Assembly: GCA_000296795.1 (NCBI GenBank)
Contig: BAFH01000003.1
Coordinates: 62,401 to 126,400 of the forward strand
Source: Candidatus Jettenia caeni
GTDB lineage: Bacteria; Planctomycetota; Brocadiia; Brocadiales; Brocadiaceae
Length of the DNA: 64,000 nucleotides
Direction: 5' to 3'
Part shown: piece after piece, positions 23,965 to 37,750 of the stretch
Position numbering within the stretch: position 1 is the stretch's first letter
Layout of the letters: each line of letters begins with the position of its first letter
Notes under the pieces: generated by a model
The model's database searches: none
Told to the model about the DNA's origin: nothing
What the model saw: only the letters and a program-made list of their open reading frames with translations
Program-made: the position numbers and the translations under genes

Positions 23965-26900
23965 ATGAAGCTTAAAAAATTAGAATTATTCGGATTTAAA
24001 TCTTTTGCTGAAAAGACGGAAATTATTTTTGAAGATGGAATAACAGTTGTTGTAGGACCGAACGGGTGTGGAAAGAGCAATATCATTGATGCTGTAAAGT
24101 GGGTACTGGGGGAACAGAGCGTAAAATCGTTAAGGGGTAATGAAATGGCAGATGTGATCTTTAACGGGACTGATAAGCGTCCATCTCTTGGTTATGCAGA
24201 GGTATCCCTGACTATCCAAAATAATAAAGGACTATTACCACTCGAATATACTGAGGTTTGTATTACCCGTCGTTTATATACTTCGGGAGAATCGGAGTAC
24301 CTTATTAACAAACAGGCAAGCCGGTTAAAAGATATTCGAGAGCTTTTTATAGATACGGGTTTTGGCGCGGATGCCTATTCTGTAATTGAACAAGGCAATG
24401 TGGATGCTTTGCTACGGGCGGATTCTCATGAGCGACGGGCATTATTTGAAGAGGCTGCGGGAATTAGTAAATTTAAATCACGAAAGAAAGCTGCTTTGGG
24501 TAAACTAGATCATGTTGAACAGAATCTGTTGCGGGTTGGCGATATTATTGAAGAGTTACGGAAACAACTGCGCTCGGTAAAACTCCAGGCATCCAAAGCG
24601 AGAAAATATCAGGAATATGTGGAACAACTAAAACGATTAAAGATAGGACTTTCACTGAAGAATTATCGGGAGCTTAAAGATAAGAAGATCACGGTTTCAG
24701 AACAAGTAAATCAGATCGAAGAGCAAAACCAGAGAATAGCTACCGATATCGACGAGATCGGGCCTCAAATAAACGAAATCGAAGATGTCATGAATCAATT
24801 AGAGCAACAATCAGCGCAGATGCAAACAGAGATGATAAATCTGGAGGCGCAGATATCGAAAAATCAGGATAAGATACACTACGACCACGAACGTATTAAA
24901 GAGTTAGAAATTCAGCATGAAAAGTATTACGAGCAGCAGGAAAACCTGAAAAACAAACTACATGAGACAGATAATAGAATCACAGAAACGAAAGAATTAT
25001 TGACTACGTTAGAGCAGGAAATTGTTAAGTTTGTAGATGCTCAAAAGATGAAAGAAACAGCCCAAAAGCAGATTGGTCTGGAATGCGATTTGTTGTACCA
25101 GAGTATGGATGAAAAGAAATCTGAGGTTATCACCATACTTCAAAAAGAGTCTGGCCTTCAAAATGAGATTGGCAGTTTAACTACGGAAAAAGATAGTTTA
25201 AAAAGCAGAAGGATGAGGCTTTCGAAAAGACAAGAGGAAATCAGTTCATTTCTGGATACTTTGGTATCTAAACATCAGGAGAGTATGAGAGAAAAACATG
25301 CACTGATGGAGGAGTTCACCGGTTTAGAACAAAGAGTATCTTCTTCAAAAGAACGCATACAGGAATTGATGATTATGATACGTTCTTTGGATGAGCAGAT
25401 TAATCAACAAAAACAACAGAAGAGCAGCAAGGTATCCCGGCACGAAGTTCTTATGGATTACGAGATGCGGTCGGAAGGTGTAGAAGCAGGCGCAAAGACT
25501 ATTTTAGAAGAATCTAAAAAAGAGCAACCAACGGTAAAGGGTATACGGGGTATGGTTGGTGATCTGTTAAAGGTTGATCTGATGTATGCATTGGCTATTG
25601 AGACTGCTTTGGGTGATAGAGTGCAGGGTATTATTGTGGATACTACAGATAACGCTGTACAGGCGATTACCTTCTTACAAGAGAATCAAAAAGGCCGTGC
25701 GGTTTTTTTCCCGCTAGACAGAATAAAGAACCAATCCTCTGTTCCCGATGAAATTTTACAAAAACCAGGCGTTATCGGTGTTGCCAGTAAACTGGTAAAT
25801 AGTACAGAAGAGGTTTGTAAGGCAGTTCATGGGTTTTTAAGCAATACCATTGTTGTAAAAGATCTTAACGCTGTGCTGGCGCTAACCGGTTATACCAAGG
25901 GGATTTGTTATGTAACACTTGATGGTGAATTATTAGAGCCTGAAGGTACCCTTAGCGGTGGCAAGAAACAAGGGCAGGTAGGGATTATATCGCGTAAAAG
26001 TGAATTAAAGAAAATCGAAGATGATTTGATTCAAATCCAGCAAACCCTTGAAAGATTGGAGCAAAATAAACAGAATTACAGCGATGAGCTTGCCGAACTC
26101 GAAATAGAAACATCTCAACTGGCAAAAAGATTGGATCAGGTAAATATTTCAAAAATCTCTAAAGATAATGAACTTGCGCAGAATGAACAAAAGCAAGATG
26201 AGCTTACGGAAGAGAAAAAAATCAATGAGAATGAAATAGAAGAGATAGATGTGGAAGTCGGGGGGGCTTGTGAACGGGAGGCAGCTTTACAGGACGAATT
26301 AAAGCTTCTCAACCAGCAGCATGAGCGATTGGAGCAGCAGGTTGAGGATGCGTCTATGCTGGTAAAGGAGAAAGAGCACTTAAAAAAGAATATTCAAGAT
26401 GAGATAACCACCTTAAAGGTTGGCCTTGCTCAAAAACAGGAAAAACAAGATGGACTGAAAAAAAGTCTGAATAAACTTTGTGCTGAACTACAGGAAGCCC
26501 AAGAACTAATCAAGCATATTGCCCATGAGAGTCAAAGCTGTATTCAGAAAAAACTGGAGGCAGAAGAGGAAATAAGATGTCTGGGACTCCAGATACAAGA
26601 GCTTCAAGCCAGGAGAGTTGTACTGGAAGAGTCAATAGTCTCTCTGAAATCAAGACAGGAAGAACATGATCTTAAACGTATAGAACTAAAGACAGACCTT
26701 GAAGGAAAACAGACAGAACACAAACATATTGAACAGCAATCACAGGAATTACGACTGAAGGAAAATGAGTACCATATTCGTATGTCCAATCTGGAGGAGC
26801 GCGTTCGGGAAGAGTATCATCTGGAGTTATTAAATTTGGATGCTACCACCGGTGAAATCAGTTTAGAATTAAGTATATCTCAAGACCAACCTGCCAGCGC

Positions 26901-27588
26901 CGCCGGTTCACAAGTCGATTTCTGGAATGCAGTTTCCCAGGAAATCGAAGAATTGCAGGGAAAAATCGAAAGGTTAGGAAATGTGAACCTGGAAGCAATT
27001 AAAGAACAAGATGAACTGGAGATACGCGAAACCTTCCTGGTGAATCAGAAAGAAGATCTTGAAAAATCACATAACGCCTTGCAGGATTTGATAAAAAAAA
27101 TCAACCATACCAGTCGTGAATTATTCGAGAAAACCTTTTGTGAAATTCGTCAGAATTTCCAGGTAATGTTCAGAAAACTATTTGGCGGAGGTAAAGCCGA
27201 TGTAATCCTGGAGGAAAATGTGGATATATTAGAGGCGGGAATAGAGATCATGGCGCAACCACCGAATAAAGAGCTTCGCTCAATTACCCTTCTTTCAGGC
27301 GGCGAAAAGGTAATGACCACCGTTGCACTTCTTTTTGCTGTATTCCAAACCAAGCCGAGTCCTTTTTGTATTCTGGATGAAGTAGATGCAGCCCTTGACG
27401 AGAGTAACATCAATCGGTTCTCCCATGTTGTAAAGGACTTTACCAGGGATACGCAATTCCTTATAATTACCCATAACAAAGTTACCATGAGTATCGCCGA
27501 CGTGATGTATGGAATTACCATGCAGGAACCGGGAGTTTCCAAAAAGGTAGCTGTTAAGTTTGAGGAAATCGAACGCAAGGTTGCTTGA
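23965..27588 (+). CDS. smc: Chromosome segregation ATPase SMC
   Basis: A 1207-residue condensin subunit that entraps and organises chromosomal DNA. The N-terminal head has Walker A GPNGCGKSNIIDAVKWVLG. Two long coiled coils (about 170-500 and 690-1030) flank the hinge at about 520-670. The C-terminal head holds the signature LLSGGEKVMTT and Walker B FCILDEVDAALDESN. It is intact. The last 69 bases of the gene and about 150 bases of downstream DNA are repeated at 29691-29900, beyond the methyltransferase module. scpA and scpB are not in the window. Confidence 0.97.
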   Translation: MKLKKLELFGFKSFAEKTEIIFEDGITVVVGPNGCGKSNIIDAVKWVLGEQSVKSLRGNEMADVIFNGTDKRPSLGYAEVSLTIQNNKGLLPLEYTEVCITRRLYTSGESEYLINKQASRLKDIRELFIDTGFGADAYSVIEQGNVDALLRADSHERRALFEEAAGISKFKSRKKAALGKLDHVEQNLLRVGDIIEELRKQLRSVKLQASKARKYQEYVEQLKRLKIGLSLKNYRELKDKKITVSEQVNQIEEQNQRIATDIDEIGPQINEIEDVMNQLEQQSAQMQTEMINLEAQISKNQDKIHYDHERIKELEIQHEKYYEQQENLKNKLHETDNRITETKELLTTLEQEIVKFVDAQKMKETAQKQIGLECDLLYQSMDEKKSEVITILQKESGLQNEIGSLTTEKDSLKSRRMRLSKRQEEISSFLDTLVSKHQESMREKHALMEEFTGLEQRVSSSKERIQELMIMIRSLDEQINQQKQQKSSKVSRHEVLMDYEMRSEGVEAGAKTILEESKKEQPTVKGIRGMVGDLLKVDLMYALAIETALGDRVQGIIVDTTDNAVQAITFLQENQKGRAVFFPLDRIKNQSSVPDEILQKPGVIGVASKLVNSTEEVCKAVHGFLSNTIVVKDLNAVLALTGYTKGICYVTLDGELLEPEGTLSGGKKQGQVGIISRKSELKKIEDDLIQIQQTLERLEQNKQNYSDELAELEIETSQLAKRLDQVNISKISKDNELAQNEQKQDELTEEKKINENEIEEIDVEVGGACEREAALQDELKLLNQQHERLEQQVEDASMLVKEKEHLKKNIQDEITTLKVGLAQKQEKQDGLKKSLNKLCAELQEAQELIKHIAHESQSCIQKKLEAEEEIRCLGLQIQELQARRVVLEESIVSLKSRQEEHDLKRIELKTDLEGKQTEHKHIEQQSQELRLKENEYHIRMSNLEERVREEYHLELLNLDATTGEISLELSISQDQPASAAGSQVDFWNAVSQEIEELQGKIERLGNVNLEAIKEQDELEIRETFLVNQKEDLEKSHNALQDLIKKINHTSRELFEKTFCEIRQNFQVMFRKLFGGGKADVILEENVDILEAGIEIMAQPPNKELRSITLLSGGEKVMTTVALLFAVFQTKPSPFCILDEVDAALDESNINRFSHVVKDFTRDTQFLIITHNKVTMSIADVMYGITMQEPGVSKKVAVKFEEIERKVA

Positions 27589-31591: not shown

Positions 31592-31984
31592 TTATTTTTC
31601 ATGATACTCTGTGAATCCCTTGCTTATTATTGACTTTGCCATTCTTTTTATCAGGCCTACATCTGAATCGATCACTTTCAGCATAAATTCCTTGGTCTCT
31701 GGTATTCCAACTTCATTAAGGGTATTAAGAATTTCCATTTTTAAAAAGGTATTGTCTGTTTGTTTAAAGAGCTTTATAATCGGCCGTACAGCTTTTGTAC
31801 TTTTAAGTTTACCAAGGATATGAATAGCCCGCCGAACTGTCTCCCGCTCTGGATGCCTGAGTGCATTTACCAACTTTTCCTCAAAATCTTTATTCACATA
31901 TTCTAATATATCGGCACCACAGAAAGGGCATATGAGATCGATTTCTTTGATCTCCTTCCAACACAAAGGACAAAAGAATGTCAT
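31592..31984 (-). CDS. Zinc-ribbon plus HEAT-repeat protein
   Basis: A 130-residue protein. The first 25 residues hold two CxxC pairs (CPLCWKEIKEIDLICPFCG) forming a zinc ribbon. The rest is HEAT-like helices (VNALRHPERETVRRAIHILGKLK, AVRPIIKLFKQTDN, LNTLNEVGIPETKEFMLKV) suited to protein-protein contacts. The function is unknown. A diverged copy of its last 19 codons lies inverted at 36856-36915, so this gene end marks one border of the block up to 36.9 kb. Confidence 0.75.
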   Translation of the reverse strand: MTFFCPLCWKEIKEIDLICPFCGADILEYVNKDFEEKLVNALRHPERETVRRAIHILGKLKSTKAVRPIIKLFKQTDNTFLKMEILNTLNEVGIPETKEFMLKVIDSDVGLIKRMAKSIISKGFTEYHEK

Positions 31985-32131: not shown

Positions 32132-33889
32132 TTATTCACTATCCGTAGAAAATTCTTTTTCCGAGGAAAAAGATAAATAACGCATGTGTGGCCGCAAATA
32201 AAGAAACCAAAACACTGCACCAATCAGAATAACGCCACCGATGAGATTTCCCAAGGTAACGGGAAGAAGGTTGTTGATAAAAAACCCCTTCCAGGTAAGT
32301 TGAGAGAGATCTAGTGTTTTTCCTGCCATTCTTTCTGCTACAGCGACGACATCCGGATGTTTTCTCAAAATTACACCCATTGGGATAAAATACATGTTTG
32401 CAACGCAGTGTTCAAACCCGCTGGCAACGAAACCACCAATGGCAAACAGAGTCGAAATTACCTTATCTGCTACACTCCTACTGCTGTAGCACAACCAGAC
32501 ATTAAGACATACCAATGCGTTGCAAAGTGTACCTCTTGCCAGGGCCTCTTCAAAAGAGAGATTAACTTTTTTATGGGCAATAAGCAGTGCCTTCGCACCT
32601 GTCATACAGTGGAAAAATTCCCACTGGTGTGCCGTATACATCCAATAAACCATCATAAGGCCGCCTATAAAATTACCAACATATACTAAGGTCCAGATCC
32701 TAAACAATTCACGTGTCATAATCTTTTTACTAAGATAACCTACAATATTTAAATTGTTACCCGTAAAAAGTTCAGAGCCAGCAACTTCGACCAGTATAAG
32801 CCCAAGGGAAAATACAATACCAGTAATGAAAGAAGTAAATCCAGCGTGTAAGGCAGAATCGCTTGTCACAAAGGTGGCAAACTGGGCACCCATAGCAACA
32901 TAAATCCCGGCTAAAATGCTCAATACAAGTGTTTGTGTAACCGTTAATCCTGCCCTTATTACTGCCTTATTTTCAACTACAGAGGCTGTCTGTGAAGGTG
33001 AATATGCTACATCTCTATCTATAGTTTGGGTAGACTCTGGAATATTATTTTCTGCCATCTTTCGCTTTCCTTTGCAAGGGGTAAGATTTGAAAGATCTGG
33101 TATTCCACCATGAATCTTTTCGGCGGCAGCCAGTACCGCTCGATTCTCTTTTAGGATAATTCCCATAGGAATAAGCCACATGTTAACAACACAGTGTTCG
33201 AATCCACAGGCCATAAGGCAAGACGTAGGCCAGAGTAATGACAGTATTTTATCGAGATTACTTTTACCACAATAGCACATCCAGACACCGAGACACAGCA
33301 AGGCATTGCCCATCATTCCCCGTGCAAAGACTACACCGAATGGGATGTTTACTTTATCATTGGCCGTAAGGACTATTTTCGCGCCCAGGAGATGATTATT
33401 CATCATCCATTGGCCAGAGGTGTATAGACATAATACAACGGCTAATGCACCAATAAAATTGCCAAGAAATGTAATGACCATATTCCTGGTAAAGGCCTTA
33501 CCGGAAATTTTCCGGGCCATAAAAGACATCGCAACAAGGCAATTTCCCGCAAAAAGTTCGGCACCGGTAATCACAATTAAAACCATTGCCAAAGTAAAGG
33601 CCACACCGCCAACAAGTTGATTTATACCATAATTAGATGTTGCAGTATGTGTTACTAATATAAAGAGCTGAGCACCAAGTGCCATAAAAACACCAGCAAG
33701 AATACTTAATACCAGCGTAGTTAAAGTGTCAAGACTGGATTTTGTTACACCTACCAGACCCACTCTATTAGTCATTTCTACCGACCCATAGGTATCAATT
33801 TCAAGTACTGGTATGATATACTTCTGTTTACCAGTGCCATCCCATGTATCAGGCATACATGGCATCCTTTTTTGATCGTTATTTAACAT
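32132..33889 (-). CDS. Fused tandem formate/nitrite transporter (FNT) protein
   Basis: A 585-residue membrane protein made of two FNT-family units that normally occur as single proteins of about 280 residues forming pentamers for formate, nitrite or related anions. Unit 1 (about 50-250) and unit 2 (about 310-570) each have GAELFAGN/GSELFTGN, an ARG-NALLCL helix, and the pore His in GFEHC (His232 and His494). The sixth helix (LPVTLGNLIGGVILIG) is present only at the end of unit 2. Unit 1 runs instead into a hydrophilic linker (about 250-310). It lies 128 bases downstream of a PII gene. The substrate is not determinable from sequence. Confidence 0.88.
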   Translation of the reverse strand: MLNNDQKRMPCMPDTWDGTGKQKYIIPVLEIDTYGSVEMTNRVGLVGVTKSSLDTLTTLVLSILAGVFMALGAQLFILVTHTATSNYGINQLVGGVAFTLAMVLIVITGAELFAGNCLVAMSFMARKISGKAFTRNMVITFLGNFIGALAVVLCLYTSGQWMMNNHLLGAKIVLTANDKVNIPFGVVFARGMMGNALLCLGVWMCYCGKSNLDKILSLLWPTSCLMACGFEHCVVNMWLIPMGIILKENRAVLAAAEKIHGGIPDLSNLTPCKGKRKMAENNIPESTQTIDRDVAYSPSQTASVVENKAVIRAGLTVTQTLVLSILAGIYVAMGAQFATFVTSDSALHAGFTSFITGIVFSLGLILVEVAGSELFTGNNLNIVGYLSKKIMTRELFRIWTLVYVGNFIGGLMMVYWMYTAHQWEFFHCMTGAKALLIAHKKVNLSFEEALARGTLCNALVCLNVWLCYSSRSVADKVISTLFAIGGFVASGFEHCVANMYFIPMGVILRKHPDVVAVAERMAGKTLDLSQLTWKGFFINNLLPVTLGNLIGGVILIGAVFWFLYLRPHMRYLSFSSEKEFSTDSE

Positions 33890-33910
33890 AATACTATGTC
33901 CCCCCGTAGG

Positions 33911-33972
33911 GGCGAAGCATTTGCAAGGGTATGGGAAAATACACTCATTTCACGATCAGCAAATGCTTCACC
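33911..33972. repeat. Intergenic inverted repeat
   Basis: Arms ggcgaagcatttgc (33911-33924) and gcaaatgcttcacc (33959-33972) match at 13 of 14 positions. It lies between the PII and FNT genes, where it could fold in the mRNA, but it has no T-run. Confidence 0.6.
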
Positions 33973-34017
33973 TCTCCTCTATTCCTTAATTTGTTGAAAA
34001 ATTCACAATCACATTAT

Positions 34018-34356
34018 TTAGATTGCAATCTCTCCTGACTCGCTGGTACGAACTCGATAAGCGTTCTCTATATTGAAAACAAATATCTTCCCATCGCCAA
34101 TACTCCCCGTTTGAGACTCATTGATGATAGCAGTAACAATACTTTCCACATCAGTATCTTTGACAACAATTTCAATCTTGAGCTTTGATAAGAGATCAAT
34201 GCGAAATCTTCTCCCGCGCCACACCTGATCTATCCCTTTTTGATTCCCATGTCCATTTACCTTTGTTACCGTCATCCCTGGATAGCCCAATTCTAATAAA
34301 GCATCCTTCACGGTATCAAACCTTTCAGGCCTAATTATTGCTTCTATCTTTTTCAT
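34018..34356 (-). CDS. PII-family nitrogen regulatory protein
   Basis: A 112-residue GlnB/GlnK-type signal protein that binds ATP/ADP and 2-oxoglutarate and regulates partners through its T-loop. MKKIEAIIRPERF, PGMTVTKVNGHGNQKG and the C-terminal GSIGDGKIFVF are family signatures. The T-loop residue 51, the uridylylated Tyr of enteric PII, is Phe here, and residue 46 is Trp. Uridylylation at 51 is therefore impossible. The ATG at 34356 is chosen for its GGAGGT ribosome site. The gene lies between a dynamin-like GTPase and the FNT fusion, not beside amtB. Confidence 0.93.
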   Translation of the reverse strand: MKKIEAIIRPERFDTVKDALLELGYPGMTVTKVNGHGNQKGIDQVWRGRRFRIDLLSKLKIEIVVKDTDVESIVTAIINESQTGSIGDGKIFVFNIENAYRVRTSESGEIAI

Positions 34357-34442
34357 AAAGACCTCCATTTGTTTAAAATGAATATACGAAAGATACTCTG
34401 AAATTTAGACTTCTCGTAATTGAAAAACTAAGGGTATTGTTT

Positions 34443-36230
34443 CTACATCTGCTTACTCTCTTTATCAATTAAATTACCAGTGTTCCATATATTTTCAAGT
34501 TTCATTCTATTCCCTTCAAGGATTTCTGCTTTACTCGTTAATAAGGCAAGTTCAACACGTATAGACTCACTTCCTGCCTTTCGCCTCTCCTGGCCTCTTT
34601 GAATTGCCTGTTCTATCTGCTTAATGAGGTCACTCCCAAGATCCTTCAATTGTTTAGAGTAATGATGAATAGTTTTACAAATCCTTGCTGATAAATCAGA
34701 GCGTACCCTGCCGCAATTTCGACTCACATCAGAGGATACCCGCTCCATCATCTCATGTAAAACCATCTTTCTGCTTACCGATTTAGGCAGAAAGGTGCGC
34801 AGAATAGACTTGACCTCTTCTTCGGTAGGAGCCGTATATTCCTGGACCATGTAATAAAAACTATTATCCCTGGTTAGTTCAACGGAAAATTCAAATTGAT
34901 TCATGGATACCTCAAAGAGTATCTCTGCAGCCGTCCTAAACTCACACATAATGTCGTTGGAACGTTTTGTAAAACGATGAAAGGTTTCCTGGATACTATT
35001 TGAGATTATGCCCTCGATATCTTTCCTAAACACATCAAATCCCTTAACAATCTCATCCTTGATAATCTTCTGCATCTCATCCCTTAAGATCGTTGGATTT
35101 GTATCTTGATTTTTTTCAAAAAAATCCTGGAGGAAGCGCTTTATCGCCGGTATCTCCTTTTCCTCAAAAACCTTTAACATCTCTTCTACCTTGAAACACA
35201 ACTTGTCCGATTCACCCCTGAGCAGACAGGTAATATCCTCTCTGTCTTGTTTCAGGTTTGCAACAAGCTTATGAAAGGTTTTGATTTTATTTTCCAACTC
35301 TTCCTCGGAAGCCTCTAGTGTCTTTTTCTCAATGGCTATTTGTGACAGTTTCTGTAAAATAATTCGTTTTACCTTGGATACCGCTGTATTTAAGATGATT
35401 TTACCTTTCTCTGAAGCAAGAAAATTACCTAATCTATCCTCCAGGTTCAAAAGTCCACTCTGTGAAAGCTGAATATCGTTTTTCGTCATCTTAGCCTTAA
35501 GTGCTTCCCTTGCAGAGACGGGTAATATTTCATGAACAGTAAATCCCATCTCTTCAAGAACATGCTTGTTGAAGGCAATAATCTCTTCGATTTCCTCAGG
35601 AGACAAATTATCGATCTTATTCAAAACAAAGAATATTTTTTGGATAGAATCTTTAATCGTATCAAGGAGTTCTTTTTCTACCTGTGAGATGGGTACGTCA
35701 GCACTCATGAGGAACAATGCCGCATCCAGATGGTCTAAAAACTCATACGTCGTTTCTGTATTATGCAGAAAGGTAGATCCTACACCGGGCGTATCTACCA
35801 GCAACATACCCTGCTCAAGAAAAGAAGACGGATGCTCGATACGTGCACACCGTACACCACGTATATTTTTCGGGTTTCCTTTTTCTGTTACATAATCAGA
35901 AAGTTCTTCTATGCGAATCTTCTTCTCACTACCGTCTTCCATAAAGACACCGCATCTGACTTCTTCACCAAACTTCAGGATCGTTACAACAGATGTTAGT
36001 GGCACTATGGATGAAGGGAGGATTTCTCTGCCAATCAGACTATTAATAAGTGTCGTCTTACCTCTTTTGAATTGGCCCAGGGTTACCAGGTTAAAACAAT
36101 TGGATACCAACTGTTCCTTGATGGTAAGCAATCGATCATCCGTTTTCCCGAACTCTTCTTTCGTTAGAACCTCAATATCTTCAATAACAGCCAGTATTTC
36201 TGTTTTCTGTTTTATAAATTCCTCTAACAT
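34443..36230 (-). CDS. Dynamin-like GTPase
   Basis: A 595-residue large GTPase. P-loop GQFKRGKTTLINSLIG, a switch I Thr in VPLTSVVT, DTPGVGS (G3) and LNKIDN (G4) define the dynamin-type G domain in residues 45-280. The remainder is predicted helical stalk with coiled coil. Bacterial dynamin-like proteins remodel or protect membranes. The ATG at 36230 overlaps the stop of a tiny upstream ORF and sits about eight bases after GAGAGG, so I prefer it to an ATG three codons earlier. It is the first sizeable gene after the fluoride riboswitch. Confidence 0.88.
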   Translation of the reverse strand: MLEEFIKQKTEILAVIEDIEVLTKEEFGKTDDRLLTIKEQLVSNCFNLVTLGQFKRGKTTLINSLIGREILPSSIVPLTSVVTILKFGEEVRCGVFMEDGSEKKIRIEELSDYVTEKGNPKNIRGVRCARIEHPSSFLEQGMLLVDTPGVGSTFLHNTETTYEFLDHLDAALFLMSADVPISQVEKELLDTIKDSIQKIFFVLNKIDNLSPEEIEEIIAFNKHVLEEMGFTVHEILPVSAREALKAKMTKNDIQLSQSGLLNLEDRLGNFLASEKGKIILNTAVSKVKRIILQKLSQIAIEKKTLEASEEELENKIKTFHKLVANLKQDREDITCLLRGESDKLCFKVEEMLKVFEEKEIPAIKRFLQDFFEKNQDTNPTILRDEMQKIIKDEIVKGFDVFRKDIEGIISNSIQETFHRFTKRSNDIMCEFRTAAEILFEVSMNQFEFSVELTRDNSFYYMVQEYTAPTEEEVKSILRTFLPKSVSRKMVLHEMMERVSSDVSRNCGRVRSDLSARICKTIHHYSKQLKDLGSDLIKQIEQAIQRGQERRKAGSESIRVELALLTSKAEILEGNRMKLENIWNTGNLIDKESKQM

Positions 36231-36313
36231 GGAACACATTCCTCTCTCAAATAACTCATAGCAATATTTTTCACAGCAGCACTTGCCGTTGTTACCCTTC
36301 CTGCAACTCTCAT
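36224..36313 (-). CDS. Possible 29-residue coupled ORF
   Basis: An ORF starting ATGAGAGTTGCAGG gives MRVAGRVTTASAAVKNIAMS followed by YLREECVPC. Its TAG overlaps the GTPase start (ATGTTAG), a classic coupling arrangement. The frame stays open upstream into the previous ORF, so it could also be the end of a larger frame-shifted gene. The evidence is the overlap only. Confidence 0.35.
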   Translation of the reverse strand: MRVAGRVTTASAAVKNIAMSYLREECVPC

Positions 36314-36332
36314 GATCTCTTTTTTATAAGTC

Positions 36333-36533
36333 TTAAACCATCCAATTATCCATCCCAAAACAAGAGCTACTGTCAAATATATATTTGCCGTTCCTTAAAA
36401 CAACATGATCCTTAATGGTTTCACTATTCAGTATCAAGTACATCATAAAAGCATCGTACAAATCTAACTTCGTATATTCAACGCCCAACAAACCTAAATT
36501 CTGAAGATCCTTAACGCCGATAACTTTCTCCAT
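36333..36533 (-). CDS. Small 66-residue protein downstream of the fluoride riboswitch
   Basis: A 66-residue ORF (MEKVIGVKDLQNLGLLGVEY ... MMYLILNSETIKDHVVLRNG ... FGMDNWMV) with a strong AGGAGG ribosome site seven bases before the ATG. There is no membrane segment, so it is not a fluoride channel. I know no family. It is the first ORF after the riboswitch and two terminators, and so should be under fluoride control if transcription reads through. Confidence 0.6.
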   Translation of the reverse strand: MEKVIGVKDLQNLGLLGVEYTKLDLYDAFMMYLILNSETIKDHVVLRNGKYIFDSSSCFGMDNWMV

Positions 36534-36591
36534 AAACTCCTCCTATCGATCAGGGAATAGGGGAATTATCTTTCAGATAATACTGAAAAAC

Positions 36592-36633
36592 AAAAAGCCC
36601 CTGTCAAAACTATATGCTTCGACAGGGGCTTTT
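36592..36633 (-). terminator. Second intrinsic terminator below the riboswitch
   Basis: On the minus strand the stem AAAAGCCCCTGTC pairs with GACAGGGGCTTTT, followed by TTTTTGTTTTT. It lies directly below the riboswitch terminator, so the leader contains two terminators in series. Confidence 0.85.
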
Positions 36634-36637
36634 CCAA

Positions 36638-36676
36638 TAAAAAAACTCCTATCGAAGGAAAACCTCAATAGGAGTT
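36638..36676 (-). terminator. Riboswitch expression-platform terminator
   Basis: On the minus strand AACTCCTAT pairs with ATAGGAGTT, followed by TTTTTTT. Its 5' arm (AACTCCTA) is the same segment that forms the aptamer pseudoknot. Fluoride binding would block the terminator and turn transcription on. Confidence 0.88.
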
Positions 36677-36716
36677 ATCAGCTACCGTGTAGCAGTTTGG
36701 CGAACTCCATCGCCTT
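36664..36716 (-). ncRNA. Fluoride riboswitch (crcB motif)
   Basis: Minus-strand RNA with every hallmark: GGCGATGGAGTTCGCC, then AAACTGC, a short variable hairpin, GCTGAT, then AACTCCTATTG. GAGTT in the first loop pairs with AACTC downstream as the pseudoknot. The linear order matches the well-known Thermotoga and Bacillus aptamers almost base for base. The family is known to switch on fluoride exporters or fluoride-tolerant enzymes. Here the transcript leads to tiny ORFs, a GTPase, PII and an FNT fusion, with no CrcB or CLC-F gene in sight. Confidence 0.93.
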
Positions 36717-36736
36717 AGAATTCTTTAATAATCGTA

Positions 36737-36765
36737 AATTTACAATACATCCAATTGGTTGTCAA
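36737..36765 (-). promoter_or_regulatory. Promoter of the fluoride riboswitch transcript
   Basis: Minus strand: consensus TTGACA (36765-36760), 17-base spacer, TAAATT (36742-36737). It places the start about 15 bases before the aptamer. Confidence 0.7.
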
Positions 36766-36915: not shown

Positions 36916-37105
36916 CTGAATATATCTTTATCCAGGACTTCATGCTATTATTTTACTATAATTTGGATAGTAGGATATTCTGATAGGCCCTATAAAATTT
37001 AACGTTGACCACGGTCTTATAGAAAAGTTGAGTTTCATTTCTCAACCTATAAAATTAAAATTAAGCCGAATTAATAATTACTATATATTTTCTATGAGGA
37101 TTAAA

Positions 37106-37750
37106 ATGAAATATATTATCTTTATCTTGTGTTTTATAAGTTATCTGTATTTTTTAAATATTGATTCCAAAGCTCAGAATGGAGGTCAAATGAGATCTAC
37201 TTTTCCTGTGGATAATGGAAAGGAAATTGCAACACTTGCGGGAGGATGCTTCTGGTGTCTGGAAGCTTTGTTTTTAGAACTGCGTGGAGTAGAGAAGGTG
37301 GAATCTGGCTATTCCGGGGGTAATGTACCTAATCCTTCATACGATCAAGTTTGTACCGGAACTACTGGCCACGCTGAGGTGGTTCAGATTACCTTTGATC
37401 CTATGATTATTTCATTTAGAGAACTTTTGGAGGTTTTCTTTACTATACATGACCCTACGACATTGAACCGCCAGGGTGCTGATGTAGGTACACAATACCG
37501 TTCAGCGATTTTTTATCACACACAAGAGCAAAGGGAGATTGCCGAACATGTGATGAAAGAATTTCGTGAAGCCAAAATATGGGATGCACCGATAGTAACC
37601 GAAATGAAGGCATTCACAGCATTCTATCGGGCAGAGGAGCATCACCAGGGATATTATAAACGCAATCCTGAGCAACCGTATTGTCGCATAGTAATTGCGC
37701 CCAAAGTGGCTAAACTTCGTAAGCAGTATCGTGCAAAACTGAAGAAGTAA
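37106..37750 (+). CDS. msrA: Peptide methionine sulfoxide reductase A, exported
   Basis: Reduces Met-S-sulfoxide in proteins. GGCFWCLEA holds the catalytic Cys, and [34 protein letters not shown] and EEHHQGYY are the MsrA signatures. The ATG at 37106 follows GAGGA by seven bases and opens a signal peptide ([17 protein letters not shown]), so the enzyme probably works outside the cytoplasm or anchored in the membrane. The longer upstream frame has no ribosome site. The C-terminal extension with Lys/Arg ([12 protein letters not shown]) is normal. It stands alone on the plus strand. Confidence 0.95.

Follow-up and report, generated by a model that had tools for sequence, protein, structure and literature searches.

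Fluoride riboswitches linked to a dynamin-like GTPase in Candidatus Jettenia caeni and across bacterial phyla

Introduction

Bacterial fluoride resistance has so far been described as a combination of export, pH homeostasis and extra copies of inhibited enzymes. Regulons of the fluoride riboswitch, or crcB motif (RF01734), include crcB, CLC-F, Na+/H+ antiporter, enolase, pyrophosphatase, mutS and uspA genes (PMC2864571, PMC11139923, PMC5533749). The locus described here lies in a stretch of 64,000 nt from Candidatus Jettenia caeni (assembly GCA_000296795.1, contig BAFH01000003.1, positions 62,401–126,400, forward strand), called the window throughout. Here an RF01734 aptamer heads a gene set in which the central gene encodes a dynamin-like GTPase. 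An initial annotation, made from the window sequence, offered two explanations: a previously undescribed system that protects the membrane or channels anions, or a fluoride exporter lost in a local rearrangement. Sequence comparison points to a solid riboswitch–dynamin unit, and fluoride almost certainly controls this dynamin family.

The riboswitch leader and its dynamin gene

The elements that carry the argument are the following.

36737–36765, minus strand: sigma-70-like promoter, TTGACA-17-TAAATT (consensus scan, 10 of 12 consensus bases)
36662–36723, minus strand: fluoride riboswitch aptamer, RF01734 (cmscan, 48.3 bits, E = 2.6e-10)
36644–36676, minus strand: terminator T1, a 14-pair stem followed by a U run; the 3' strand of the aptamer pseudoknot serves as its 5' arm
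36592–36634, minus strand: second terminator T2, a 19-pair stem followed by a U run
34443–36239, minus strand: dynamin-like GTPase of 598 aa, the central gene (Pfam Dynamin_N, E = 4.4e-26; riboswitch-linked orthologues; IniA/BDLP-like predicted fold)

Aptamer, pseudoknot, promoter and a terminator sharing the pseudoknot arm had all been read from the sequence in the initial annotation, which proposed a covariance-model search with the Rfam fluoride motif. That search places the aptamer at 36723–36662 on the minus strand, above the gathering cut-off of 34 bits and as the sole Rfam match in the window. The promoter layout agrees as well: TTGACA starts at 36765, the spacer is 17 nt long and TAAATT ends at 36737, and many related aptamers have TTGACA at a similar upstream distance. 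The pseudoknot strands GGAGU and ACUCC and the invariant core are present in the window aptamer and conserved in an alignment of 24 aptamers (this one and 23 related ones). By score and invariant positions the aptamer is a fluoride riboswitch, predicted to bind fluoride and to change transcription in response. Strand ACUCC is contained in the 5' arm of the T1 stem (36676–36644), the pairs of which are retained in 97% of alignment cells across 16 distinct leaders.

Linkage of riboswitch and dynamin

The pairing extends far beyond this genome. The relatives considered are the best 80 matches to the dynamin from 84,980 species genomes, selected without reference to RNA; riboswitches were sought upstream on the same strand with a covariance model built from the local aptamers. 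In 61 of these 80 nearest relatives (60 with the local model and one with Rfam) the strand of the dynamin gene carries a riboswitch no more than 800 nt before it; in five more the distance is 0.9–1.8 kb. Rfam's own model, applied to 12 distant loci, confirmed the riboswitch before the dynamin in 11; at the twelfth (L124) riboswitches stand elsewhere in the locus. Linked loci fall in at least eight phyla and carry the labels Planctomycetota, Thermodesulfobacteriota/Deltaproteobacteria, Nitrospirota, Bacillota, Actinomycetota, Calditrichota, Bacteroidota, Atribacterota and KSB1.

A second sample consists of 100 unselected genomes from the class of Desulfofundulus. Dynamin genes of this kind number 31, in 28 genomes, and 26 of the 31 stand directly behind a riboswitch. 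All 28 dynamin-bearing genomes have a riboswitch, compared with 27 of the 72 others (Fisher p = 1.5e-9). About one-quarter of the roughly 106 riboswitch matches in this sample precede dynamin.

Within the anaerobic ammonium-oxidizing (anammox) family to which the window organism belongs, RF01734 occurs in 21 of 24 genomes, often in two or three copies per cluster. A dynamin orthologue, 73–83% identical, is present in exactly those 21, and the other three genomes (G001, G002 and G015) have neither element. Two sister-family genomes, G029 and G032, carry an orthologue of 62–63% identity and no riboswitch, and in G037 a riboswitch precedes a dynamin relative of 30% identity. Among the Scalindua-type dynamin loci L107–L111, L107 alone retains the riboswitch, with T1 present and T2 absent. 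Behind a second fluoride riboswitch, loci L040, L044, L046, L051 and L052 encode GTPase-less proteins of 275 aa that match only the C-terminal half of dynamin. Comparison of gene order in relatives had been suggested as a check in the initial annotation; it finds dynamin directly behind the riboswitch repeatedly, both in the family and across phyla.

The wider islands vary in content. Recurring genes encode CPA2-type Na+/H+ antiporters (often with a riboswitch of their own), Usp, MFS, HEAT, DUF6062 and HAD proteins; a few islands have enolase, MutS domain V, UvrD or CrcB, the last of these twice. As assigned by sequence, these neighbours overlap the known fluoride regulon in the CPA2 antiporter, Usp, enolase, MutS, HAD and CrcB (cf. 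PMC11139923). In L050 (G024), from another family of the same order, a riboswitch leads genes for a Na+/H+ exchanger, Usp, HEAT and MFS proteins, and dynamin is absent. Some island genes, among them those for Usp, MFS transporters and UvrD, belong to general stress or have no evident connection, which would suit the view that the aptamer is real and the dynamin an ordinary passenger, part of a general acid or anion stress regulon with no specific role in fluoride tolerance. Against that view, usually no other gene stands between the dynamin and its own riboswitch, the distance often being 25–230 nt, and the pairing persists while other neighbours change; a passenger role is very improbable.

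The dynamin family and its predicted fold

The GTPase motifs GQFKRGKT, DTPG and NKID are invariant or nearly so among 55 members. An AlphaFold2 model of the window protein, with a mean pLDDT of 84.5, has the layout of the dynamin superfamily: a GTPase domain is followed by a long helical bundle and trunk. The best structural matches to the predicted fold are mitofusin and Fzo1 constructs, which cover about 320–340 residues; IniA (519 residues, Z = 25.5) and BDLP (533–544 residues, Z about 21; 21.1 for the 544-residue alignment) match it over most of its length. The far end is a low-confidence loop (residues 440–467) with a conserved FYY at 458–460, positions that are aromatic in 80–98% of the family. 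In BDLP-type proteins the membrane-contacting tip lies at this end. The DynA equivalog model NF052648 (1187 positions) gives 64 bits, far below its cut-off of 1600. On the structural model, the best reading is a dedicated IniA/BDLP-like dynamin, and a role of the family in membrane remodelling or protection is an evenly balanced proposition. Maintenance of the membrane under fluoride would be the most economical reading of the fold, of the relatives (DynA has a role in membrane surveillance; PMC8844932) and of the chemistry of hydrogen fluoride (HF) entry (PMC11139923).

The riboswitch-linked proteins form a family of their own. In a tree, 74 members, 61 of them with a riboswitch, split with 100% support from six paralogues, and a riboswitch was not found at the loci of these six paralogous dynamins from the window and related genomes. 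This separation bears on the idea of target compensation, in which metal fluoride together with GDP mimics the transition state of dynamin-type GTPases, so that fluoride poisons the dynamin and the cell makes more of it, in the way proposed for the enolase and pyrophosphatase of other fluoride operons. GDP–AlF4 complexes of dynamin-type GTPases are indeed among the solved structures, and some of the dynamin islands also encode enolase, a known fluoride-inhibited riboswitch target (PMC11139923, PMC5533749). Poisoning should, however, strike just as hard at the ordinary dynamin paralogue that these genomes carry, and that paralogue has no riboswitch; the linked protein is a separate family that is missing from riboswitch-free genomes of the anammox family, rather than an extra housekeeping copy. 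Compensation is a decidedly unlikely explanation.

Fluoride exporters

The initial annotation noted that the window has no CrcB/Fluc or CLC-F gene, and the same holds for the whole genome. No match to CrcB (PF02537) was found anywhere in its four contigs (99.95% complete), nor among the 24 genomes of the family. The intact CLC of the window genome contains GSGASVGPADPS; the CLC-F signatures GNNLI/GMGLI, GREGT/V and GEVTP (PMC11139923) are all absent from it. A second CLC gene of this genome is broken by stops and a frame change (L057, G000:C4:957090-957517). A CLC acting as a hidden fluoride exporter was considered and rejected wherever the motif could be read: every such CLC, the intact one included, is of the chloride type. 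The motif was unreadable in a few fragments or sequences. The suggestion that an exporter was lost in a local rearrangement falls away: all 24 family genomes lack CrcB, and no readable CLC has the CLC-F signatures. Since CrcB is missing in 24 of 24, exporter absence is, to judge from these genomes, a trait of the lineage and not of the window locus.

In the wider set the association is looser. CrcB is absent from 39 of 50 named dynamin genomes. In the class sample it is lacking in 24 of 28 dynamin genomes and in 43 of 72 genomes without dynamin (p = 0.017, with related genomes counted as independent). By these gene counts, the riboswitch-linked dynamin occurs mostly where CrcB is missing. Dynamin as a strict substitute for CrcB is too strong a claim, with CrcB in 11 of the 50 dynamin genomes and a base rate in one class of only 34%.

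A possible relay between two terminators

The two terminators have complementary arms, the 3' arm of T1 matching the 5' arm of T2. This complementarity raises the possibility of relay antitermination as part of the best explanation: when fluoride is absent, T1 and then T2 would terminate in series; when it is present, the freed 3' arm of T1 would block the second terminator by pairing with its 5' arm. Across 32 leaders, 8–12 of the 12 positions pair (mean 10.6, against 6.2 after letter shuffling). Pairs fill 88.5% of alignment cells, a level reached in none of 500 shuffles; the covariation score exceeds all 500, and slid versions pair at 55% or less. When the 5' arm of T1 is left out and the 3' arm of T2 has yet to be made, the helix folds at about −17 to −23 kcal/mol. 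On the other side, a complete T2, once made, mostly surpasses this helix in stability; one A–C mismatch is fixed in every leader, and the covariation count is inflated by sequence relatedness. Because an origin of T2 as a copy of T1 would yield the same complementarity, the relay is held as a tentative proposal with slightly less than an even chance.

Other leaders depart from this arrangement. Two terminator-less aptamers (L052:11754-11814 and L054:9242-9302) have a pseudoknot arm that could pair with a Shine–Dalgarno-like stretch before the next gene, and look to be of the translational type. At L041:10463-10649, two fluoride aptamers stand in close tandem, about 60 nt apart, with a terminator at the first only.

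The gene set behind the riboswitch

Besides dynamin, the gene set has the following members.

36333–36533, minus strand: open reading frame (ORF) of 66 aa, a conserved small protein whose homologues occupy the corresponding position behind the riboswitch at six other loci
34018–34368, minus strand: PII-family protein (Pfam P-II, E = 6.6e-31), with Phe at the usual T-loop tyrosine
32132–33889, minus strand: fusion of two formate–nitrite transporter (FNT) proteins, A' and B' (Pfam Form_Nir_trans in two stretches, E = 2e-118; tree)
31592–31984, minus strand: zinc-ribbon and HEAT-repeat protein (HEAT_2, E = 9.3e-9), recurrent in fluoride-riboswitch islands and the likely end of the gene set

The initial annotation listed the 66-residue ORF, a 29-residue ORF, dynamin, PII protein and FNT fusion as same-strand genes. 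Pfam supports the last three; no Pfam match was found for the 66-residue ORF, which is conserved at the six other loci. The zinc-ribbon/HEAT gene (31984–31592), on the same strand as dynamin, is an addition to that list. A methionine sulfoxide reductase gene (37028–37750, plus strand) runs divergently from the riboswitch promoter. The window also contains a gene of 1,207 aa (23965–27588, plus strand), and a gene of such length lies directly upstream of the riboswitch–dynamin cluster in L038, L041, L048, L051, L052 and L054. If these are the same gene, the cluster has moved in the window genome.

Both halves of the FNT fusion keep the GFEHC motif, and an NCBIfam FNT match accompanies that of Pfam. 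The C-terminal B' half is complete. The N-terminal A' half covers only model positions 2–208 of 240 and is short of the usual six segments per protomer, its sixth and last transmembrane segment being missing; judged from the alignment, the fusion looks like a deletion-type protein. In a tree, the operon FNTs make up two long-branched clades with no other members. Both descend from a tandem pair of housekeeping FNTs, which riboswitch-free relatives possess too; copies merely near a riboswitch group with the ordinary ones. In FocA numbering, obtained by alignment with 3kcu and anchored by Thr91, all B' copies have Glu in place of Val83 and carry Asn at each of positions 94, 96 and 178, and four of five A' copies have lost the otherwise invariant Thr91. 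By alignment, these clade-specific substitutions are located near the pore. The PII T-loop reads RGRRFRIDLL in place of RGAEYxVDFL, which we take to be the canonical motif with its uridylylation tyrosine; Phe replaces this tyrosine in the window protein and in the relatives that reach the site.

These features invite the explanation that the FNT pair is the real fluoride exit in the anammox family, gated by PII as AmtB is by GlnK, with dynamin as a helper. The exclusive long-branch clades, their near-pore changes and the adjoining PII gene are all in keeping with it, and with the anion exit route suggested in the initial annotation. Other points count against it: FNTs in riboswitch–dynamin operons are confined to the anammox family, which excludes FNT as the common denominator of dynamin islands; several anammox genomes have riboswitch and dynamin with no FNT in the stretch examined; and the A' half of the window protein lacks its last helix. 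We know of no FNT that transports fluoride, and an FNT exit is unlikely.

Proposed mechanism

The reading preferred here is a fluoride ON-switch that drives a dedicated IniA/BDLP-like dynamin as the membrane arm of the fluoride regulon; taken as a whole, it is moderately probable. Of the two explanations in the initial annotation it takes up the first, with a shift of weight: the dynamin and its riboswitch link across phyla favour membrane protection, and the anion channel is the weaker part, with FNT only in anammox-family operons. The steps would be as follows. (i) Mg-fluoride docks in the aptamer, which acts as a transcriptional ON-switch. (ii) The docked pseudoknot would sequester the 5' arm of T1, so that polymerase reads into the dynamin-led gene set. 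(iii) More speculatively, the freed 3' arm of T1 may disarm the second terminator by pairing with the 5' arm of T2. (iv) The dynamin probably assembles on the cytoplasmic membrane, as IniA and BDLP do, and the loop with the aromatic FYY tip would insert. (v) There it may reshape, tether or seal a membrane leaking under HF or proton stress. (vi) In the anammox family the gene set would have gained two further parts, the duplicated pair of FNTs and a PII protein, with a possible role of the latter in regulating anion flow. Comparison establishes, at the level of sequence and of one structural model, the riboswitch, the gene order, the dynamin family, the predicted fold and the absence of CrcB; fluoride would induce the genes in the cell, and FNT and PII may contribute.

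Several points weigh against this reading. Many records are metagenome bins with uncertain labels and completeness, and the statistical tests treat related genomes as independent. In 14 of the 80 relatives (most Scalindua loci and one clade of Syntrophobacterales-type records) the sequence examined showed no riboswitch, so the dynamin may also work constitutively. CrcB accompanies the dynamin in 4 of the 28 class-sample genomes that have it and in 11 of the 50 named genomes, so that dynamin does not simply replace export. Three family genomes survive without riboswitch, dynamin or CrcB. Membrane repair would be read entirely from the fold and the relatives. A more ambitious version, in which the entire dynamin family is dedicated to fluoride and provides exporter-independent tolerance (for instance by closing the membrane to leaking HF and protons, or by shedding membrane loaded with fluoride through pinching), with a newly evolved fluoride-conducting FNT pair in anammox bacteria and a two-terminator relay, is rather doubtful.

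In at least eight phyla a dynamin gene often comes first behind a fluoride riboswitch of its own. This directs attention to the membrane as a place where fluoride does damage or is fended off, and suggests that bacteria, besides exporting fluoride, respond to it by remodelling or repairing their membranes. Bacterial dynamins, for which inducing signals are mostly unknown, would gain a defined chemical inducer. Culturable hosts with the system include Desulfofundulus australicus DSM 11792 and D. thermosubterraneus DSM 16057, and anammox reactors on fluoride-bearing wastewater would offer a directly testable tolerance system.

Comparison with known systems

A literature search found no paper joining the fluoride riboswitch and dynamin (the supplementary gene list of the 2012 discovery paper lay outside it), and nothing relevant on anammox with fluoride or anammox with dynamin. 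Known RF01734 regulons resemble the window locus in the aptamer, the overlapping terminator, the ON-type logic and, in the wider islands, the CPA2 antiporter, Usp, enolase and MutS genes. The window locus differs by its dynamin target, by two tandem terminators and by a genome with no known exporter. Its FNT fusion shares Pfam and NCBIfam matches and the histidine motif FEHC with FocA-type formate channels (3kcu); it differs in being fused, one helix short and changed near the pore, and in lying beside PII and dynamin under a fluoride riboswitch. The 275-aa C-terminal-half paralogue behind a second riboswitch in relatives is reminiscent of paired operon dynamins (PMC6104087); here the partner has no GTPase domain, and the window cluster is without such a partner. 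DynA of Bacillus subtilis (NF052648) is likewise a bacterial dynamin, to which PMC8844932 assigns membrane surveillance; its model spans 1187 positions, against 598 aa and 64 of the 1600 bits for the window protein. Over most of its length the predicted fold resembles IniA of mycobacteria (6j72) and BDLP of Nostoc (2j68), with the GTPase motifs conserved, at about 15–17% identity. Unlike these, the window dynamin is tied to a fluoride riboswitch, not to envelope-drug stress, and carries the FYY loop tip.

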